A stretch of 64,000 bases of DNA from Algoriphagus hitonicola. Lineage in GTDB: Bacteria; Bacteroidota; Bacteroidia; Cytophagales; Cyclobacteriaceae. Shown one piece after another: positions 16,576 through 58,338 of this stretch (the stretch's first letter is position 1; each line of letters opens with the position of its first letter). The notes beneath the pieces were generated by a model. The model did no database searches and was not told where the DNA came from. It worked only from the letters and a program-made list of their open reading frames with translations. Where the stretch lies: contig NZ_FOPC01000004.1 in the NCBI RefSeq assembly GCF_900113375.1, forward strand, positions 248,001 through 312,000, written 5' to 3'. The position numbers and the translations under genes were made by a program.

Positions 16576-17309
16576 AACTTCGCGCTGAGCATTTAGTCAA
16601 AATTTATAAAAGCCGACGGGTCGTCAATGATATTTCTGTCGAGGTCGAGCAGGGCGAAATCGTGGGATTGTTGGGACCGAATGGAGCTGGAAAAACCACC
16701 TCGTTTTATATGATCGTGGGTTTGGTAAAGCCCAACGAAGGAGATATTTTCTTGGAGGAGGAGAATATTACCGGTCTTCCGATGTACAAACGTGCCAAGC
16801 TGGGAATCGGATATCTGGCACAAGAGGCCTCTGTTTTCAGAAAACTCAGTGTAGAAGAAAACCTGATGGCGGTTTTGGAAATGACCAAGCTTTCGAAACA
16901 AGATCAAAAAGAAAAAGTAGAAAGTCTCCTGGAGGAATTTAGTCTGACTCACGTCCGCAAAAATCTCGGAATGGTGCTTTCGGGAGGAGAGCGACGACGG
17001 ACGGAAATTGCACGCGCACTTGCTGTAGATCCTAAATTTGTACTGTTAGATGAGCCATTTGCCGGGGTGGATCCCATCGCTGTCGAAGAAATCCAAACCA
17101 TCGTAGCCAAGCTAAAAACCAAAAATATTGGCATTTTGATTACCGATCACAATGTCAACGAAACGCTCTCGATTACTGACAGGGCTTATTTGATGTTTGA
17201 GGGAAAACTATTGAAGGCCGGTACTGCCGAAGAACTCGCCGCGGACGAACAGGTCAGAAAAGTATATCTGGGAAGTCAATTTGAGCTTAAGCGCAAAATT
17301 TTTAACTAA
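16572..17309 (+). CDS. lptB: LPS export ABC transporter ATPase LptB
   Basis: Cytoplasmic ATPase that powers extraction of lipopolysaccharide from the inner membrane with LptF/LptG. Walker A is GPNGAGKTT (residues 35-43). The Q-loop region [18 protein letters not shown] is characteristic of LptB, and the signature LSGGERRR, Walker [14 protein letters not shown] and H-loop ITDHNV all follow. Its last base is the first base of the next gene's ATG. Confidence 0.96.
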
Positions 17310-18838
17310 TGGAAGTACTAAACAGTTTCATGACCTGGGTTTTCAAAACCCGGCTGGGACAAATCGAAAACTTTAAGAAAAACCCCATCCAAACTCAAAG
17401 GACGGTTCTTTTTGAATTAATAGACGCTGGGCGAAAAACTGAGTTTGGTCGAAAATACAATTTCTCTGAAATTAAAAATTACCGGGATTTTGCAGATCAG
17501 CTTCCACTTTTTGATTATGATAGTTTTAAACCCTACATCGACCGGACGATGGAAGGCAAACAAGGAGTGATTTGGAATTCGAAAATCGAGTGGTTTTCCA
17601 AATCTTCCGGGACGACTTCAAGCCGAAGCAAATACATTCCCGTCACCGAAGAAAGCCTCGAAGAATGTCACTACAAAGGGGGCAAGGATATGCTTTCGCT
17701 TTATTTGTCCAATTATCCCAATTCCAAACTATTCTCTGGAAAGAACCTGACGATCGGTGGGACGCTTGAAAAAAACCCGCTAAATCCTCAAGGAACCGCC
17801 AAAGCGGGAGATATCTCTGCGGTAATCATGAAAAACCTGCCCATTTGGGCACAGATTGTCCGCACACCCAATCTCGAAACCGCCTTGATGGGTGAGTGGG
17901 AGGCCAAAATCGAAAAAATGGCCAGAGAAACCATGAATGAAAACGTCGTGAGTATAGCCGGTGTGCCTACATGGACAGTGGTCTTACTCCGAAGGATTTT
18001 GGAGCTAAAAGGAGCTAAACATATTTTGGAGGTTTGGCCAAATCTTGAAGTTTTCTTTCACGGAGCAGTGGCTTTTGGGCCCTATCGCAGTCTGTTTAAG
18101 GAATTGATTCCTTCCGAAAAAATGCGCTATATGGAGACCTATAATGCCTCCGAAGGCTTTTTTGGGATACAAGATCAGCCTGATTCGGACGAACTGTTGC
18201 TTTTGCTGGATTATGGAATTTTTTATGAGTTTATCCCAATGGAAGAATGGGATAGCGAAAATCCCAAAGCGATCCCGCTGCAGGAGGTTGAAATCGGGAA
18301 AAATTATGCGGTGGTCATATCTACCAATGGAGGACTGTGGCGATATAAAATTGGCGATACCATCCGGTTTACCTCGACAGCACCTTATCGATTTAAAATT
18401 TCTGGACGAACCAAACACTTCATCAATGCCTTTGGCGAAGAAGTGATCGTAGAAAATGCAGAAAGTGCAATCTCCTTCGCAGCTGAAAAAACCAGCTCGA
18501 CTATCTTAAATTTTACAGCAGCTCCAGTGTATTTTAGTTCCGATGAAAATCAAGGTGCACATGAATGGATCATCGAATTCAAAAATCCTCCTGAAAACAA
18601 GGATCAGTTTATTCACTTACTGGATAATCATCTTCGGGAGATCAACTCGGATTATGACGCCAAGCGATATAAAGATCTGGCGTTGAAGGCCCCACTCGTT
18701 CACTTTGCTTCGCCGGGACTTTTTGAAAAATGGCTGGGCAAAAAAGGAAAATTAGGCGGACAACATAAAGTGCCAAGACTGTCCAATGATCGGGGATATC
18801 TGGAGGAACTTTTGGAACTGCTAAAGGAGGAAATTTAG
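17309..18838 (+). CDS. GH3 auxin-responsive-promoter family acyl-adenylating enzyme
   Basis: Member of the GH3 branch of the ANL (adenylate-forming) superfamily, which in plants conjugates amino acids to hormones; the bacterial substrate is unknown. The 509-residue protein has the nucleotide-binding motif FSKSSGTTSSRSKYIPVT at about residues 95-112, YNASEGFFGIQ for the adenine contact, and RYKIGDTIRF with RTKHFINAFGEE at the C-terminal hinge. It overlaps lptB by one base (TAATG), so translation is probably coupled. Confidence 0.92.
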   Translation: MEVLNSFMTWVFKTRLGQIENFKKNPIQTQRTVLFELIDAGRKTEFGRKYNFSEIKNYRDFADQLPLFDYDSFKPYIDRTMEGKQGVIWNSKIEWFSKSSGTTSSRSKYIPVTEESLEECHYKGGKDMLSLYLSNYPNSKLFSGKNLTIGGTLEKNPLNPQGTAKAGDISAVIMKNLPIWAQIVRTPNLETALMGEWEAKIEKMARETMNENVVSIAGVPTWTVVLLRRILELKGAKHILEVWPNLEVFFHGAVAFGPYRSLFKELIPSEKMRYMETYNASEGFFGIQDQPDSDELLLLLDYGIFYEFIPMEEWDSENPKAIPLQEVEIGKNYAVVISTNGGLWRYKIGDTIRFTSTAPYRFKISGRTKHFINAFGEEVIVENAESAISFAAEKTSSTILNFTAAPVYFSSDENQGAHEWIIEFKNPPENKDQFIHLLDNHLREINSDYDAKRYKDLALKAPLVHFASPGLFEKWLGKKGKLGGQHKVPRLSNDRGYLEELLELLKEEI

Positions 18839-18859: not shown

Positions 18860-19198
18860 TTAATGAAGTTTTGCCCCGTTGGGAACCTGTCGTTCGGTAC
18901 TGCTGAGCACGATATTTCCATCTGGATCCGAAAATCCCGTAATCAATACTTCCGACATAAAATCCGCGATTTGTCGGGGTTTGAAATTAACCACACAGAT
19001 GACTTGCCGACCCATCAGCTCTTCTTTTGAGTACAAAGCGGTCACTTGTGCCGAGGATTTTTTAATCCCAAAATCAGACCCAAAGTCCACCCAAATTTTA
19101 TAAGCGGGTTTTCGGGCTTTTTCAAAATTTTCGACCTGTACAATCGTACCCACTCTTAAATCAATTTTGTCGAAATCTTCGAAGTCAATCGTTTGCAT
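18860..19198 (-). CDS. csaA: CsaA-like tRNA-binding (OB-fold) protein
   Basis: A 112-residue single OB-fold of the EMAPII/tRNA-binding domain family, starting DFDKIDLRVGTIVQVE and containing GRQVICVVNFKPRQI and SEVLITG. CsaA has been described as a secretion chaperone, and the fold binds tRNA. It is convergent with the GH3-family gene, with only 21 bases between the stops. Confidence 0.92.
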   Translation of the reverse strand: MQTIDFEDFDKIDLRVGTIVQVENFEKARKPAYKIWVDFGSDFGIKKSSAQVTALYSKEELMGRQVICVVNFKPRQIADFMSEVLITGFSDPDGNIVLSSTERQVPNGAKLH

Positions 19199-19645: not shown

Positions 19646-19677
19646 TAAAAAGAGACCCGTTTGAGTCTCTTTTTTTT
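19646..19677. terminator. Terminator between convergent genes
   Basis: AAAAGAGAC pairs with GTCTCTTTT across a short loop and ends in a T-run. It touches the stop of the minus-strand HisA-like gene and can serve both directions. Confidence 0.7.
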
Positions 19678-20410
19678 ATGATTCAGATATAAATTTTTCG
19701 AGATCCTTTAGGGTGATTTTCCCTTCGAAATACGCTCTTCCAAAAACTGAGGACTTTACTCCGATATCCCTGAGTGCTTTAAAATCATCGATTCCACGCA
19801 CACCACCACTTGCAGCTAAATGAATATTGGGAAATCGATCGATGACATTTTTATACAGCTCCAAATTTGGCCCCTCCATCACGCCATCCCGGCTGACGTC
19901 TGAGCATTTGAGGTATTTCAGACCACGATCATAAAAGAACTCAATGTGGTCGTAAAGATCTATACTGGTTTTTTTTAACCAACCCCGGATTTTTATTTTG
20001 TTATCCACAGGATTACAGTCGGCTGCTAGGTTGATTTTTTCCCTACCATAGGATAGAATAAACTGTCCGAAGCGCTCTGGGTGATTGGCAGCTGCAGAGG
20101 ATATGGTCACGGTTTTGGCACCAAATTCAAAACATTTAATTACATCTCCATCTGTGGTGATACCTCCGGTGAAATCAATTAATAAATCGGTGTAGCCCGC
20201 AATCGCCTCAAGAATATGATAGTTTTTGGGTTCCCCTCTTCGAGCCCCATCTAAATCAACCAAGTGAAGTCGTTTTAGGCCGATAGACTCAAACTCCTGA
20301 GCGATTCCCAGGGGATTGGAGGAAATCACTTCTTCGGTCGTGAAATCTCCTCGTTTGAGGCGAACGCACTTCCCATTAATGAGCCAAATAGATGGAATTA
20401 TTTCAAACAT
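19676..20410 (-). CDS. HisA-like TIM-barrel protein with altered catalytic residues
   Basis: A 244-residue (beta-alpha)8 barrel clearly homologous to HisA, the ProFAR isomerase of histidine synthesis (LHLVDLDGARRGEP, KCSDVSRDGVMEGPN, AASGGVRGIDDF, VFGRAYFEGK). The first strand reads IIPSIWLINGKCVRL where HisA has PAxDLxxG, so the general-base aspartate (Asp8 in Thermotoga HisA) is Trp9. GGGIR of the phosphate site is TGGIT. The second catalytic aspartate appears kept (NLAADCNP). No other his genes are nearby. It is better viewed as a HisA paralogue of unknown activity than as histidine-pathway HisA. Confidence 0.8.
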   Translation of the reverse strand: MFEIIPSIWLINGKCVRLKRGDFTTEEVISSNPLGIAQEFESIGLKRLHLVDLDGARRGEPKNYHILEAIAGYTDLLIDFTGGITTDGDVIKCFEFGAKTVTISSAAANHPERFGQFILSYGREKINLAADCNPVDNKIKIRGWLKKTSIDLYDHIEFFYDRGLKYLKCSDVSRDGVMEGPNLELYKNVIDRFPNIHLAASGGVRGIDDFKALRDIGVKSSVFGRAYFEGKITLKDLEKFISES

Positions 20411-20573: not shown

Positions 20574-21611
20574 TCAATACTTTAATCGCCCTATTTTGCC
20601 ATCAGCTCCGGAAGCCCAAATGGCTCCTCCCGAATGTGCCCGGCTCACCGCATGATATCCTTCTGAGCTAAACAATGTCCAGTTTTTTCCTCCATCTGTT
20701 GAAAAATCACTTCCGGAAGGTCCTGTCGCAATCACCCAATGGTAATGGGAAAAATAAGCAACTGCAGATCGGTATCCGGCAGGTGGACTGGTAGGCTGTA
20801 ACCACTCTTGGTCGGGAATAAGAAACAACCCGGCATTGCCGGTGATTTCTTTCTCTTGGGTATAATCTCCTCCTACTGCAATGATTTCTCCATTTCCGAC
20901 ATGAGTAATGGAAAAAATCCCCCGTGAGGGATTGCCCTGTGCCAAATTGCTTTTCCATTTTTCCCAGGTTTTGCCTCGGTTTGGAGAATAATAAAGATTG
21001 GACACCGTTCCCCCGCTTCCCAGCCAGAGTTCATCGTCCAGTGCTAAAAGTGATGATGCGCTAGCTGCAAATCCCGCTTCCCCCGATTCGGCCAAAGGAA
21101 GTGAATCAATTAGACTCCAGTTTTCCCCCTGATCTTTGGTCTCCAAAATCGTCCACCTACCCTCAACCGGATCACCAAAGACATAGCCTCGATCTTCATC
21201 AGCAAAACTGATACCGTCCAAAAATGCATCCGCTGGTTCTTGGTGTTTTTTGGTCCATGTTTGACCTCCATCTTCGGTTTTGTATATGACTGCGGGTTGA
21301 CCAGCAGATACCACGATGGCTTGCTCTGCGTCAAAGGCATAGATCGATCTAAAATCCACGCTGTCCAAGGAGTCCACGATCCCATGAGTCCAAGTTTGTC
21401 CTCCATCCAGCGACTTGAGCCAGGTTCCTCCACTTCCACTTGACCATATAATGTCTTCGGTCACCGGAGAAAGTCCCCTCAAGGATGCTTTTACCGGGGT
21501 ATTCATCATCTCCCAACCAACTGGTTCCTTTACTGTCCCTTCTCCTGAATTCTTTTGGCAGGAAAAAAGCGCTGTTGAAATCAACAGCGCTCCGATACTT
21601 TTTTTCAACAT
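20574..21611 (-). CDS. YCF48-like/Asp-box beta-propeller lipoprotein
   Basis: A 345-residue lipoprotein (signal LLISTALFSCQK) with repeated Asp-box turns: SLDGGQTWTH, TEDGGQTWTKK, SPNRGKTWEKW and STDGGKNWTLF. These mark a propeller related to YCF48 assembly factors and sialidase-type folds. No sialidase catalytic residues can be identified with confidence, so a binding or scaffold role is more likely. It is the last gene of the susC-susD operon, 9 bases after the preceding gene. Confidence 0.85.
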   Translation of the reverse strand: MLKKSIGALLISTALFSCQKNSGEGTVKEPVGWEMMNTPVKASLRGLSPVTEDIIWSSGSGGTWLKSLDGGQTWTHGIVDSLDSVDFRSIYAFDAEQAIVVSAGQPAVIYKTEDGGQTWTKKHQEPADAFLDGISFADEDRGYVFGDPVEGRWTILETKDQGENWSLIDSLPLAESGEAGFAASASSLLALDDELWLGSGGTVSNLYYSPNRGKTWEKWKSNLAQGNPSRGIFSITHVGNGEIIAVGGDYTQEKEITGNAGLFLIPDQEWLQPTSPPAGYRSAVAYFSHYHWVIATGPSGSDFSTDGGKNWTLFSSEGYHAVSRAHSGGAIWASGADGKIGRLKY

Positions 21612-55023: not shown

Positions 55024-56376
55024 TTAAACAGCCTTGGCTGTTTCCAATTTGTCTATGATGTCTAAATAATCCAGCTTATCCCAGTTTTCGGTTATTAATG
55101 GATCAGCCATAACTTTATTCATGATGGCTTCTTGTAATTTCCCCTGAGCGTAAGCCTCCGCATAGCCCATATCTGTAAAAGTAACCATGGAATACAGCGG
55201 AATCCATTCCTTGGGATAAAGCTCATGAAGTTTTGCTTCGATTTTTTTCCTGATAATAAATTTCGGATCAGCTACAGAATCTCTCATTTCGATAAAATTC
55301 TCCATCGCTAGCTGACAGATCGCATCGGTATCGGGCTTTCTCTTTTTTTGAAATTTTTCGAAAACCAAATCCCAAGAATTGACCCCATATTTTTCGATCA
55401 ATTGATTGAGAATATAACAGTCCTCAAACCCACAATTCATCCCCTGTCCATAAAAAGGAACCATGGCGTGCGAAGCATCTCCGAGGAGTACACTGTGTCC
55501 TTTGACCCAAGGATAGCACTCGACATTAATCAAGGCTGAGGTTGGATTTCGAAAATATTCCGTCTTCAAATCCGGCATGAGGTGATAGGCATCATCAAAA
55601 TAGGATCGAAAAACCTGATCCAAATCCGCTTCATCGTTGATTTTTTCAAAGCAAACTTTCGCTCCTTCAAAAGGAAGAAATAAGGTACAAGTAAATGATT
55701 TATCCGGATTAGGTAAAGCAATCAACATAAATTTCCCTCTCGGCCAGATGTGCAGCGCATTAGGATCCATGGCAAATTCCCCTTCAGCTGTGGGAGGAAT
55801 AGTCAATTCCTTATATCCGTGGGAAATGTATTCTTGTCGGTAATTAAAGCGGATTTGCTTTTGCATAGCCGTTCTGAGAGCAGAATAAGCTCCGTCAGCC
55901 CCGATGATCACCGGAGCAATCTGTTTTTGTTTTCCTTCCTTCGTTTCAAAGGTGATTTCTTGATTCTCGAAATTCACATCCAAAAATTTGTGCTCAAAAC
56001 GAATCTCAGCCCCTAAACGCTCAGCTTCTTCGGCCAGCAGTTGATTGAATTTTCCTCTGGAAATAGAATAGATCGCCTGATCTTCTTTTCCGTAGGAAAT
56101 AAAAGTAGTCCCGCCATGCTCGTCATGGACTTTTCGTCCATACATCGGAATAGCCAAGGGTAGGACCTTGTCTTTGAGGCCTACCTGCCCGAGGCTTTTC
56201 CATCCACGGTGACTGAGCGCCATGTTTATGGATCTACCACCTTCGTCATAAGGGGTTTTACGTTTATCGGGCCGCTTGTCGTAAACGGTCACGTCAAGGC
56301 CTTGTTTTCTAAGATATATTGCCATTAGAGTGCCGATCAAGCCAGCCCCTAATACAGTAATTTCGTTTTTTTCCAT
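55024..56376 (-). CDS. kmo: Kynurenine 3-monooxygenase
   Basis: FAD and NADPH-dependent hydroxylase turning kynurenine into 3-hydroxykynurenine. About 450 residues with VLGAGLIGTLMAIYLRKQG (FAD Rossmann), DEGGRSINMALSHRGW, VIIGADGAYSALR, LGDASHAMVPFYGQGMNCGFED, and a hydrophobic C-terminal region. The ATG at 56376 is preferred to a GTG at 56394. It is the third gene of the kynurenine operon. Confidence 0.95.
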   Translation of the reverse strand: MEKNEITVLGAGLIGTLMAIYLRKQGLDVTVYDKRPDKRKTPYDEGGRSINMALSHRGWKSLGQVGLKDKVLPLAIPMYGRKVHDEHGGTTFISYGKEDQAIYSISRGKFNQLLAEEAERLGAEIRFEHKFLDVNFENQEITFETKEGKQKQIAPVIIGADGAYSALRTAMQKQIRFNYRQEYISHGYKELTIPPTAEGEFAMDPNALHIWPRGKFMLIALPNPDKSFTCTLFLPFEGAKVCFEKINDEADLDQVFRSYFDDAYHLMPDLKTEYFRNPTSALINVECYPWVKGHSVLLGDASHAMVPFYGQGMNCGFEDCYILNQLIEKYGVNSWDLVFEKFQKKRKPDTDAICQLAMENFIEMRDSVADPKFIIRKKIEAKLHELYPKEWIPLYSMVTFTDMGYAEAYAQGKLQEAIMNKVMADPLITENWDKLDYLDIIDKLETAKAV

Positions 56377-56401
56377 GAGGAGGTTTTTTCCCACGCTTTA
56401 A

Positions 56402-57688
56402 TTAAGCGAATTTTTTAAGGGATTGTTCCAGAATCTTGCCAAAGCGAAACACATCCATGAAACTGTTGTAAAGTGGTGTAGGTGCTAAGCGAATGACATT
56501 GGGATTTCTCCAGTCGCCTAGGACTCCCTGCTGATACCATTCATCGAAAACGGCCTTTCCGCCACGATGAATGAGCAAAGATAACTGACAGCCTCTTTCG
56601 CTTTGATTTTCAGGGGTAATTATTTCCAAAATCCCAGACTCACCACTGATTTTTTTTATTAAAAACTCCAAATACCCAGTTAATTGTTCACTTTTTTGAC
56701 GCAAATTTTGAATTCCTGCTTCCTGAAAAATATCCAAGGAAGCCTGATGCGCGGCTAGGGCCAAAACGTTTGAATTGGCGAGCTGCCAACCATCCGCTCC
56801 ATACATGGGCAAAAACCCCTTTTCCATCTGAAACCGCTGTCCCTCATCATGTCCCCACCATCCTGCAAACCGCGGCAAATCCGGCCGCTCCGCAAATCGC
56901 TCATGTACATACACTCCGGAAATATTTCCCGGGCCGGAATTCAAATATTTATAACTGCACCAGGTTGCAAAATCCACATTCCAATCATGCAAGTACAAAG
57001 GGACGTTGCCCGCCGCATGTGCCAAATCAAATCCAGCCAAAGCTCCGACCTCATGTGCCGCCGCGGTGATGGCTTTCATATCAAAAACCTGTCCCGTATA
57101 ATATTGCAGTCCTGCCATATTGACCAAAGTAAGCTGATCACCTTGATTCCGGATTTCAGCTAAAATGTCTTCCGTTCGCAGAGTATATTCTCCAGTTCTC
57201 GGACTCAACTCGACGATTACATCATCGGGATTCAAGCCATGAAATTTGACCTGACTTTCCAGCATGTATTGGTCAGAGGGAAAAGCGCCTTTCTCGATGA
57301 TGATTTTATATCGCTCAGGAGTTGGCCGATAAAAAGAAACCATCAGCAGGTGTAAATTGACGCTGAGATTATTCATCGCGACCAACTCATGCTCATGAGC
57401 CCCAAAAATCTCTGAAAGTGCAGGCTTTGATTTTTTCCGAACGTGATACCAAGCATCTTCTCCGTGGAAATGTCCGTCAACAGCCAGATCGGCCCAGTTT
57501 TTAAGCTCCCGATCGAGATAGGATTTGACACTTTTAGGTTGGAGACCGAGGGAGTTTCCACAAAAATAAATCGCTGGATTTCCATTGACCTTTGGAAAAT
57601 GAAACCGATCTCTAAAAGTAGAAAGTGGATCCTCTCGGTCCATTTTTAAAGCAAATTCCTCCGAAAAGTCAAATTCTAGTGCGCTCAT
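56402..57688 (-). CDS. kynU: Kynureninase
   Basis: PLP enzyme that splits 3-hydroxykynurenine (or kynurenine) into 3-hydroxyanthranilate and alanine. The 428-residue protein has YFCGNSLGLQPK, NNLSVNLHLLMVSFY, GFDLAHAAGNVPL and the PLP lysine in FATWCSYKYLNSGPG. Positioned between the dioxygenase and monooxygenase genes on the same strand. Confidence 0.97.
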   Translation of the reverse strand: MSALEFDFSEEFALKMDREDPLSTFRDRFHFPKVNGNPAIYFCGNSLGLQPKSVKSYLDRELKNWADLAVDGHFHGEDAWYHVRKKSKPALSEIFGAHEHELVAMNNLSVNLHLLMVSFYRPTPERYKIIIEKGAFPSDQYMLESQVKFHGLNPDDVIVELSPRTGEYTLRTEDILAEIRNQGDQLTLVNMAGLQYYTGQVFDMKAITAAAHEVGALAGFDLAHAAGNVPLYLHDWNVDFATWCSYKYLNSGPGNISGVYVHERFAERPDLPRFAGWWGHDEGQRFQMEKGFLPMYGADGWQLANSNVLALAAHQASLDIFQEAGIQNLRQKSEQLTGYLEFLIKKISGESGILEIITPENQSERGCQLSLLIHRGGKAVFDEWYQQGVLGDWRNPNVIRLAPTPLYNSFMDVFRFGKILEQSLKKFA

Positions 57689-57716
57689 AAGCTGATATCT
57701 AAGGTGCTAAACCGGA

Positions 57717-58229
57717 TTATTTTTCCATGGCCGTCCCGCAGTTTTTGCAGGTTCGGTGCTCAATATTATTCCAAAAGCGCTCCATGATCGGAGGGAGCTG
57801 ATTGACAATGTCGGTGAGCTCTACATATTCTTCATACAGCAGATTGCCGCAGTTTTCACAATGCCAAATAAAGCCATCCTTTTCACCGGCCCTTCGGTAC
57901 CGCTCGACCACCAAACCTACTGTGTTTTCCGGTCTCCGGGGAGAGTGGGGAACTTTTGGAGGTAAGAGAAATATTTCCCCTTCTTTAATTTCAATGTCTT
58001 TTGGCTTGCCATCTTCGATGACTTTCAGCACGATATCGCCTTCGAGTTGATAGAAAAATTCTTCTCCCTCATCGTAGTGATAATCTTTCCGTGAATTTGG
58101 TCCACCGACCACCATGATAATAAAATCATCATTTCCTTTAAATACTTGCTGATTTCCAACAGGAGGCTTCAGGAGATGTCTGTTTTCATCGATCCATTTT
58201 TTGAAATTAAAAGGTGGTGATAAGGGCAT
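57717..58229 (-). CDS. nbaC: 3-Hydroxyanthranilate 3,4-dioxygenase
   Basis: Ring-opening dioxygenase giving aminocarboxymuconate semialdehyde, the precursor of quinolinate and NAD. About 170 residues; cupin iron ligands in the region DYHYDEGEEFFYQLEGD (His, Glu) and the later His in LLPPKVPHSPRRPENT. A rubredoxin-like CxxC pair typical of bacterial forms is in CENCGN and CKNCGT at the C-terminus. The ATG at 58229 is preferred to the TTG at 58250. First gene of the kynurenine operon. Confidence 0.96.
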   Translation of the reverse strand: MPLSPPFNFKKWIDENRHLLKPPVGNQQVFKGNDDFIIMVVGGPNSRKDYHYDEGEEFFYQLEGDIVLKVIEDGKPKDIEIKEGEIFLLPPKVPHSPRRPENTVGLVVERYRRAGEKDGFIWHCENCGNLLYEEYVELTDIVNQLPPIMERFWNNIEHRTCKNCGTAMEK

Positions 58230-58338
58230 GCTGATTAATTTTGGTGACAAAACGCTTTATGGACTAAACCAAATTTCGACCTAAAAGTATTAAAAAACAC
58301 CCGTTTTTTTGGTTTACTTTGTCTAAAAGCCCTCATCC

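Follow-up and report, generated by a model that had tools for sequence, protein, structure and literature searches.

Does a gene that resembles hisA, and whose product lacks the catalytic aspartate of strand 1, still encode an enzyme of histidine biosynthesis? The question arises in Algoriphagus hitonicola, where one gene in the 64,000-nucleotide stretch of DNA that we analysed (the window; contig NZ_FOPC01000004.1, positions 248,001 to 312,000) encodes a HisA-fold protein, P0001, with a tryptophan at that position. HisA is a standard model for the origin of new enzyme activities by duplication and divergence. Genes of this kind, which carry the HisA domain, are also easily misread as HisA, and in genomes that have no hisD such a reading would wrongly imply a step of the pathway.

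The window gene and its canonical counterpart

P0001 is read on the minus strand (Table 1), in a genome of 4.33 Mb; the plus strand of the same span is rich in stops. Its N-terminus is MFEIIPSIWLINGKCVRL, its nearest named matches come mostly from Algoriphagus (79 to 95% identity), and in a Pfam search PF00977 matches it across residues 3-233 (E 6.5e-57). The initial annotation, made from the letters of the DNA, had described a HisA paralogue in which tryptophan stands in place of the general-base aspartate and TGGIT in place of GGGIR, the rest of the fold and the second aspartate being kept. All of these features are present: W9 lies in PSIWLINGK on strand 1, TGGIT occupies residues 81-85 in loop 3, and both D131 and D175 are retained. 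An AlphaFold2 model built from 32 sequences (pLDDT 92.2, pTM 0.90) agrees with S. enterica HisA 5a5w at a TM score of 0.93 and an rmsd of 1.8 Å, and with 5abt at a Z score of 35.5 and an rmsd of 1.7 over 242 residues. The 50 VIA-align entries listed include HisA, PriA, HisF, and designed HisF-type barrels; DeoC has no row among them, which excludes nothing.

The same annotation had proposed a search for a second, canonical hisA and had placed P0001 away from any histidine operon. Such a gene exists at G000:C10:169152-169856, in the order hisH-hisA-hisF-hisIE; its product is 43% identical to P0001 and carries the motif PAIDLIGGK(C). Because this canonical gene occupies the his operon of the same genome, P0001 is a paralogue outside the operon, as the annotation had it. 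Against the TIGR00007 equivalog profile (cut-off 228.95 bits) P0001 scores 188.8 bits and eight other paralogues score 183.9-209.6 bits, all below the cut-off; five of five canonical HisA proteins lie above it, at 233.0-258.2 bits. The acid-base cysteine of TrpF is likewise located on strand 1. P0001 has tryptophan there, and neither Cys nor Asp occurs at position 9 in any of 146 paralogues; Asp and Cys are the acid-base residues of HisA/TrpF-type enzymes according to the available text of PMC9088769. P0001 is a member of the HisA superfamily by fold, with the PF00977 barrel and the loop-6 Asp175, and is not HisA by score, by catalytic residue (the strand-1 Asp is absent), or by co-occurrence with other histidine genes, hisD being absent from eight of nine paralogue-only genomes.

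Table 1. Features of the window gene and its surroundings, with loci of two recurrent neighbours elsewhere
Feature	Position in window, or loci	Strand	Basis and remarks
HisA-like paralogue P0001, 244 aa, span including stop	19676..20410	-	ORF and PF00977
Trp9 codon, catalytic-Asp position (S. enterica D7, M. tuberculosis PriA D11)	20384..20386	-	Alignment to S. enterica HisA; PriA Asp11 from the available text of PMC13055916
TGGIT codons (81-85), altered distal phosphate (phosphate-2) site	20156..20170	-	Alignment; site as given in the available text of PMC7591586
Asp131 codon (S. enterica D129)	20018..20020	-	Alignment; in 145/146 paralogues
Trp144 codon (S. enterica W145, stacks on ProFAR in HisA)	19979..19981	-	Alignment; in 143/146 paralogues; available text of PMC9088769
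Lys168 codon, strand beta-6 (S. enterica L169)	19907..19909	-	Alignment and model; invariant among paralogues
Asp175 codon, loop 6 (S. enterica D176, PriA D175)	19886..19888	-	Alignment; in 131/146 paralogues
YCF48/BNR-repeat protein, directly upstream	20574..21611	-	Same neighbour in 58/61 Algoriphagus-type loci; no functional link implied
tRNA-binding-domain protein, downstream	18860..19198	-	Such a gene within four genes downstream in 66/119 loci
Kinase-regulator pair upstream of the paralogue	L144-L148, L150, L158-L163, L167, L175-L178, L181-L183		Deeper Cyclobacteriaceae
lysA (diaminopimelate decarboxylase), adjacent and divergent	L165, L169, L173, L351, L354, L358		Families f1, f5, f9, f15

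Residue 9, Lys168, and the phosphate sites

We aligned 182 distinct HisA-type sequences, all from Cytophagales as far as the records tell, and divided them by residue 9 into 36 Asp-type and 146 non-Asp proteins. Since the groups are defined by that residue, the test of their reality is the association with other positions, above all position 168, together with the tree. Every one of the 146 non-Asp sequences has Lys168 and none of the 36 Asp-type proteins does, the latter carrying I (31), F (3), or T (2). The association recurred in sequences fetched after the pattern had been noted (25/25 non-Asp vs 0/14 Asp; n=39) and in a set partly overlapping the first (20/20 vs 0/25). HisA proteins from 19 genomes of the phylum, mostly of other classes (n=20, of which 19 from outside the class), all have Asp9 and never Lys168 (0/20). 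Residue 9 itself varies: W in 90 of the 146, S in 15, Y and A in 12 each, T in 7, L in 4, V in 3, and also N, Q, and F. Tryptophan is common in Algoriphagus and its near relatives and occurs in only 2 of the 47 most divergent sequences. As read from the alignment, the signature of the clade is a non-Asp residue at 9 together with Lys168. The absence of aspartate claimed by the initial annotation stands; tryptophan as the defining change does not, being one of many fillers of a freed position.

Other residues are typical of the 146 and rare in the Asp group: R123 (144), S7 (143), G88 (142), F159 (139), H155 (138), R205 (137), S120 (136), and R162 (136). The distal phosphate site is, by the same alignment, also changed. 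At position 81 all 36 canonical proteins have G, and the paralogues have T (121), S (15), or A (8). At position 85 canonical HisA carries Q, K, or R, and the paralogues carry mainly S (76), T (32), or H (18). Position 104, again G in 36/36 canonical proteins, is occupied among the paralogues by A (90), S (43), or G (12). The equivalent S. enterica sites, 79, 83, and 102, recur in HisA-to-TrpF evolution in the available text of PMC7591586. The exchange of GGG for TGG noted at first is real, but taken alone it is no proof of lost HisA activity, because subHisA has Thr81 and PriA Ser81 as described in the accessible part of PMC4462073, a match to the TGG of the paralogue that is taken from numbering and motif and not from an alignment.

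Much of what HisA uses is retained in the 146 paralogues. Besides Asp131 and Trp144 (Table 1), His49 is kept in 139, R/K17 in 144, and S/T170 in 143, and the reactive-side phosphate loops (SGG, G[RK]A) are kept in most, with S201 in 132, G224 in 137, and R/K225 in 139. The retention of W144, R/K17, S/T170, and H49 means that the substrate may still be ProFAR-like. Asp175, for which the portions of PMC9088769 and PMC13055916 available to us give a catalytic role in HisA and PriA, is replaced by E, N, Y, V, or Q in the 15 sequences that have lost it.

Position 168 aligns with residue 169 of S. enterica HisA in a phmmer alignment, and the best-scoring structure chain by sequence for P0001 is 5g2h, the S. 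enterica HisA L169R mutant. On the model, residue 168 falls on strand beta-6 (residues 166-171); the lysine would be expected to lie next to Asp131. In S. enterica the single change L169R is enough to remove HisA activity and to give rise to TrpF activity (available text of PMC7591586), and in simulation R169 contacts D129, the equivalent of Asp131, and the carboxylate of PRA (available text of PMC9088769).

Distribution, ancestry, and neighbourhood

Two HisA-type genes are found in 23 of 24 genomes of the genus, our own included, the one miss being an assembly that is 76% complete. At the level of the family, 103 of 118 genomes have two such genes, 14 have one, and one has none; among the 14, the five that were read hold either the paralogue only (G058, G110, G153) or the canonical gene only (G050, G067). 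Two matches at E <= 1e-55 occur in 49 of 146 genomes of the order (families f1, f4, f5, f9, f15, f85, and f88), and two at E <= 1e-60 in 9 of 296 genomes of the class, all from family f1. The 21 single matches read from the class, 20 of them from other orders, are all Asp-type. In the phylum, 148 genomes match at E <= 1e-40; outside the class, five f96 genomes have two matches, and since both copies keep Asp9 in the two genomes read, these second copies are another duplication. A separate, divergent HisA group that keeps the strand-1 Asp (PSIDI), and in which the loop-6 catalytic Asp has become Asn (TDVxxNG), was also seen in other Bacteroidota classes (L298, L301, L303; a second copy in G621 and G653).

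The initial annotation had proposed a phylogeny of the W- and S-type paralogues, and in the trees the whole non-Asp group is one clade. In a first tree, 63 paralogues (the window gene, two later loci, the divergent sequences, and eight close ones chosen at random) are split from 57 canonical HisA proteins by one branch with 100/100 support. A second tree, of 24, 27, and 20 sequences with 12 HisA from other classes as the outgroup, again recovers the paralogues as one clade (100/100), inside canonical Bacteroidia HisA. The node joining the paralogues to all Bacteroidia-type HisA has 100/97; because the nodes that nest the clade within it have 87/44 and 98/75, the nesting is likely rather than certain. 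Long branches lead to L215 (from G030) and L173. Given this topology, the loss of Asp9 and the gain of Lys168 look like one event that followed the duplication of an ordinary HisA. Across 21 pairs from seven members of the genus, the paralogues are on average 81% identical with dN 0.14, and canonical HisA 85.5% with dN 0.10, the synonymous distance being saturated in 20/21 paralogue pairs and 10/21 canonical pairs. These distances point to clear purifying selection on the paralogue, somewhat weaker than that on hisA.

In some genomes the paralogue stands alone. Nine were tested in which the paralogue is present and canonical HisA was not detected. A search for hisD found none in eight of them (G028, G030, G032, G058, G110, G153, G514, and G556; 93 to 98% complete); the ninth, G496 (690 contigs, 7% contamination), does carry hisD, and so do 7/7 genomes with both the paralogue and canonical HisA. 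In five of the eight (G030, G032, G058, G514, G556) trpD was not found either. The paralogues of all eight retain Lys168 and Asp131. A further strong PF00977 match accompanies the paralogue in G028 and G514, and G475 and G498, which lie outside the hisD set, also yielded only the paralogue. A gene that is retained in eight genomes without hisD, five of them also without trpD, very probably works outside histidine biosynthesis, and probably outside tryptophan biosynthesis as well. Several families of one order maintain it, including genomes that seem to have no histidine pathway. Together with the TIGR00007 scores, this persistence lends support to the original suggestion of a changed reaction or a non-catalytic role.

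Several neighbours return in one part of the clade or another: the YCF48 protein, the tRNA-binding protein (in the window presumably of the CsaA type), lysA, a GNAT acetyltransferase, a fusion of MurF with alanine racemase, and a histidine kinase together with a response regulator. The counts leave out L122 (no cluster match) and L180. Gene-neighbourhood comparison found no neighbour common to all families and none that points to a pathway. The lysA gene lies within five genes in 10/40 loci (families f1, f5, f9, and f15) and is adjacent and divergent in six; half of these 40 loci were hand-picked, lysA cases among them, and lysA is near in 3 of the 20 new ones. This adjacency is perhaps an old gene order. 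Replacement of DapA, an idea prompted by the nearby lysA and by the lysine on beta-6, was considered and rejected, since dapA passes its cut-off in 18 of the 20 genomes searched (the window's own among them) and is missing only from G028 and G030.

Two other observations concern the window. Near the paralogue, at 17309-18838 on the plus strand, is a GH3-family protein with all three GH3 domains (the plant-type acyl-acid-amido synthetase family). Three adjacent genes at 55024-58250 on the minus strand look, judged from their sequences, like kynurenine monooxygenase, kynureninase, and 3-hydroxyanthranilate dioxygenase, which we take to lead from tryptophan to quinolinate.

Possible functions and relation to known systems

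We think it fairly probable that the paralogue is a neofunctionalised HisA, the representative of a Cytophagales enzyme family that arose from ordinary HisA and uses Lys168 and Asp131 on a sugar-derived phosphate ligand. The HisA barrel would have kept its reactive-side phosphate loop and aromatic lid, while the strand-1 aspartate would have been exchanged for a lysine beside Asp131, and Lys168 would have taken over from the lost Asp/Asp acid-base system. The product should be an active enzyme on a sugar-derived phosphate and not a ProFAR isomerase. The gain and fixation of new residues makes a changed reaction a better fit than a loss of activity (K168 in 146, R123 in 144, S7 in 143, H155 in 138, and R205 in 137 of 146).

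Within this proposal two parts may be imagined for the lysine. In an imine mechanism of the isomerase or aldolase kind, Lys168 could serve either as nucleophile or as base; hardly less probable is that it holds a carboxylate of the substrate electrostatically, by analogy with R169 and PRA. In DERA the Schiff-base lysine is Lys167, on beta-6 (available text of PMC5975929). We looked for a trace of such a relationship with profiles, using 13 DeoC loci after L285 was dropped for a missing motif. Weak DeoC profile matches occur in 6/6 paralogues, five of them over beta-6/7, vs 0/5 canonical HisA; hhalign gives probabilities of 6.3 and 5.1% for paralogues against DeoC and 3.8 and 2.8% for canonical HisA, and Lys168 meets the DeoC lysine in the second, low-probability alignment only, the best alignment leaving out beta-6. 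Covalent imine chemistry of the class-I-aldolase type is possible, though weakly supported. DeoC homology as the identity of the paralogue was rejected: P0001 scores 18.6 bits and five other paralogues 14.0-20.0 bits against TIGR00126, where the cut-off is 117.3, which is no significant homology, and the window's own genome has a separate deoC. More speculatively, the clade could be a natural lysine-dependent, imine-forming, class-I-like family of general metabolism that has given up the Asp/Asp pair, with a reaction new to the HisA superfamily, and so the wild counterpart of L169R.

Three other explanations deserve comment. The first, which we consider improbable, is that the protein is non-catalytic and that its binding of a sugar phosphate would serve to sense this ligand or to act on a partner, for example an upstream two-component pair. 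The loss of the catalytic Asp9, and of the loop-6 Asp175 in 15/146, would suit such a role. Such a pair, a histidine kinase with a response regulator, immediately precedes the gene on its own strand, at a distance of 63 to 336 bases, in 20 of the 40 deeper loci; L174 and L180, among these 40, contain the canonical gene. However, the pair is absent at the window gene and stands directly upstream in only 1 of 20 later loci, mostly of other families, and the new residues that have become fixed within the barrel hint at chemistry or at binding of a specific ligand. The second, very unlikely in our judgement, is that the paralogue is a TrpF-type enzyme, a PRA isomerase like S. enterica HisA L169R. 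It has a basic residue at the L169 position and differs from HisA at the sites of G79, R83, and G102, and a search for PF00697 found no TrpF in four of the eight hisD-less genomes (G030, G032, G058, G514) and a marginal one in a fifth (G556); yet these five genomes also have no trpD and so need no TrpF, the window's own genome already has TrpF and trpD, and no paralogue has the Asp or Cys at 9 that such an enzyme would use. The third, a second, slow or regulated ProFAR isomerase, can hardly be credited: the fold, Trp144, His49, Asp131, and in 131/146 Asp175 are those of HisA, but the catalytic Asp is replaced, 9/9 paralogues score below the HisA cut-off, eight genomes keep the gene without hisD, and the S. 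enterica enzyme loses its HisA activity when residue 169 becomes basic (available text of PMC7591586).

We regard the clade as a new subfamily of the HisA superfamily, probably with a different reaction. In the open-licence literature we found no report of a Cytophagales HisA paralogue, and the accessible text of PMC8305728 names as his-gene paralogues hisA/hisF, hisN/gmhB, and additional copies of hisF and hisH, but no second copy of hisA. Compared with HisA itself (TIGR00007, PF00977), the clade shares the fold, the reactive-side phosphate loops, Trp144, His49, and Asp131, and differs in the missing strand-1 Asp, in Lys168, in the altered distal phosphate site, in its sub-cut-off score, and in having no tie to the his pathway. 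With the class I aldolase DeoC it shares a barrel with a lysine on beta-6, at scores far below the DeoC cut-off. PriA, subHisA, SubTrpF2, and AdeK of Actinomycetota are, like the clade, natural duplicates or shifts of the HisA family with new roles; AdeK, for instance, serves a nucleoside antibiotic cluster. Unlike AdeK and SubTrpF2, for which Asp11 and Asp175 are described as conserved catalytic residues (both statements from the available text of PMC13055916), the Cytophagales clade has no first catalytic Asp and has Lys168. At that site the paralogue resembles the laboratory variant of S. enterica HisA, L169R (5g2h), in which the corresponding place on beta-6 is also taken by a basic residue; the paralogue differs in having Lys and not Arg and in having lost the strand-1 Asp, whereas L169R is a single change in wild-type HisA. 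Nature has fixed a basic residue at the very site that laboratory evolution uses for the switch from HisA to TrpF, alongside the loss of the catalytic aspartate.
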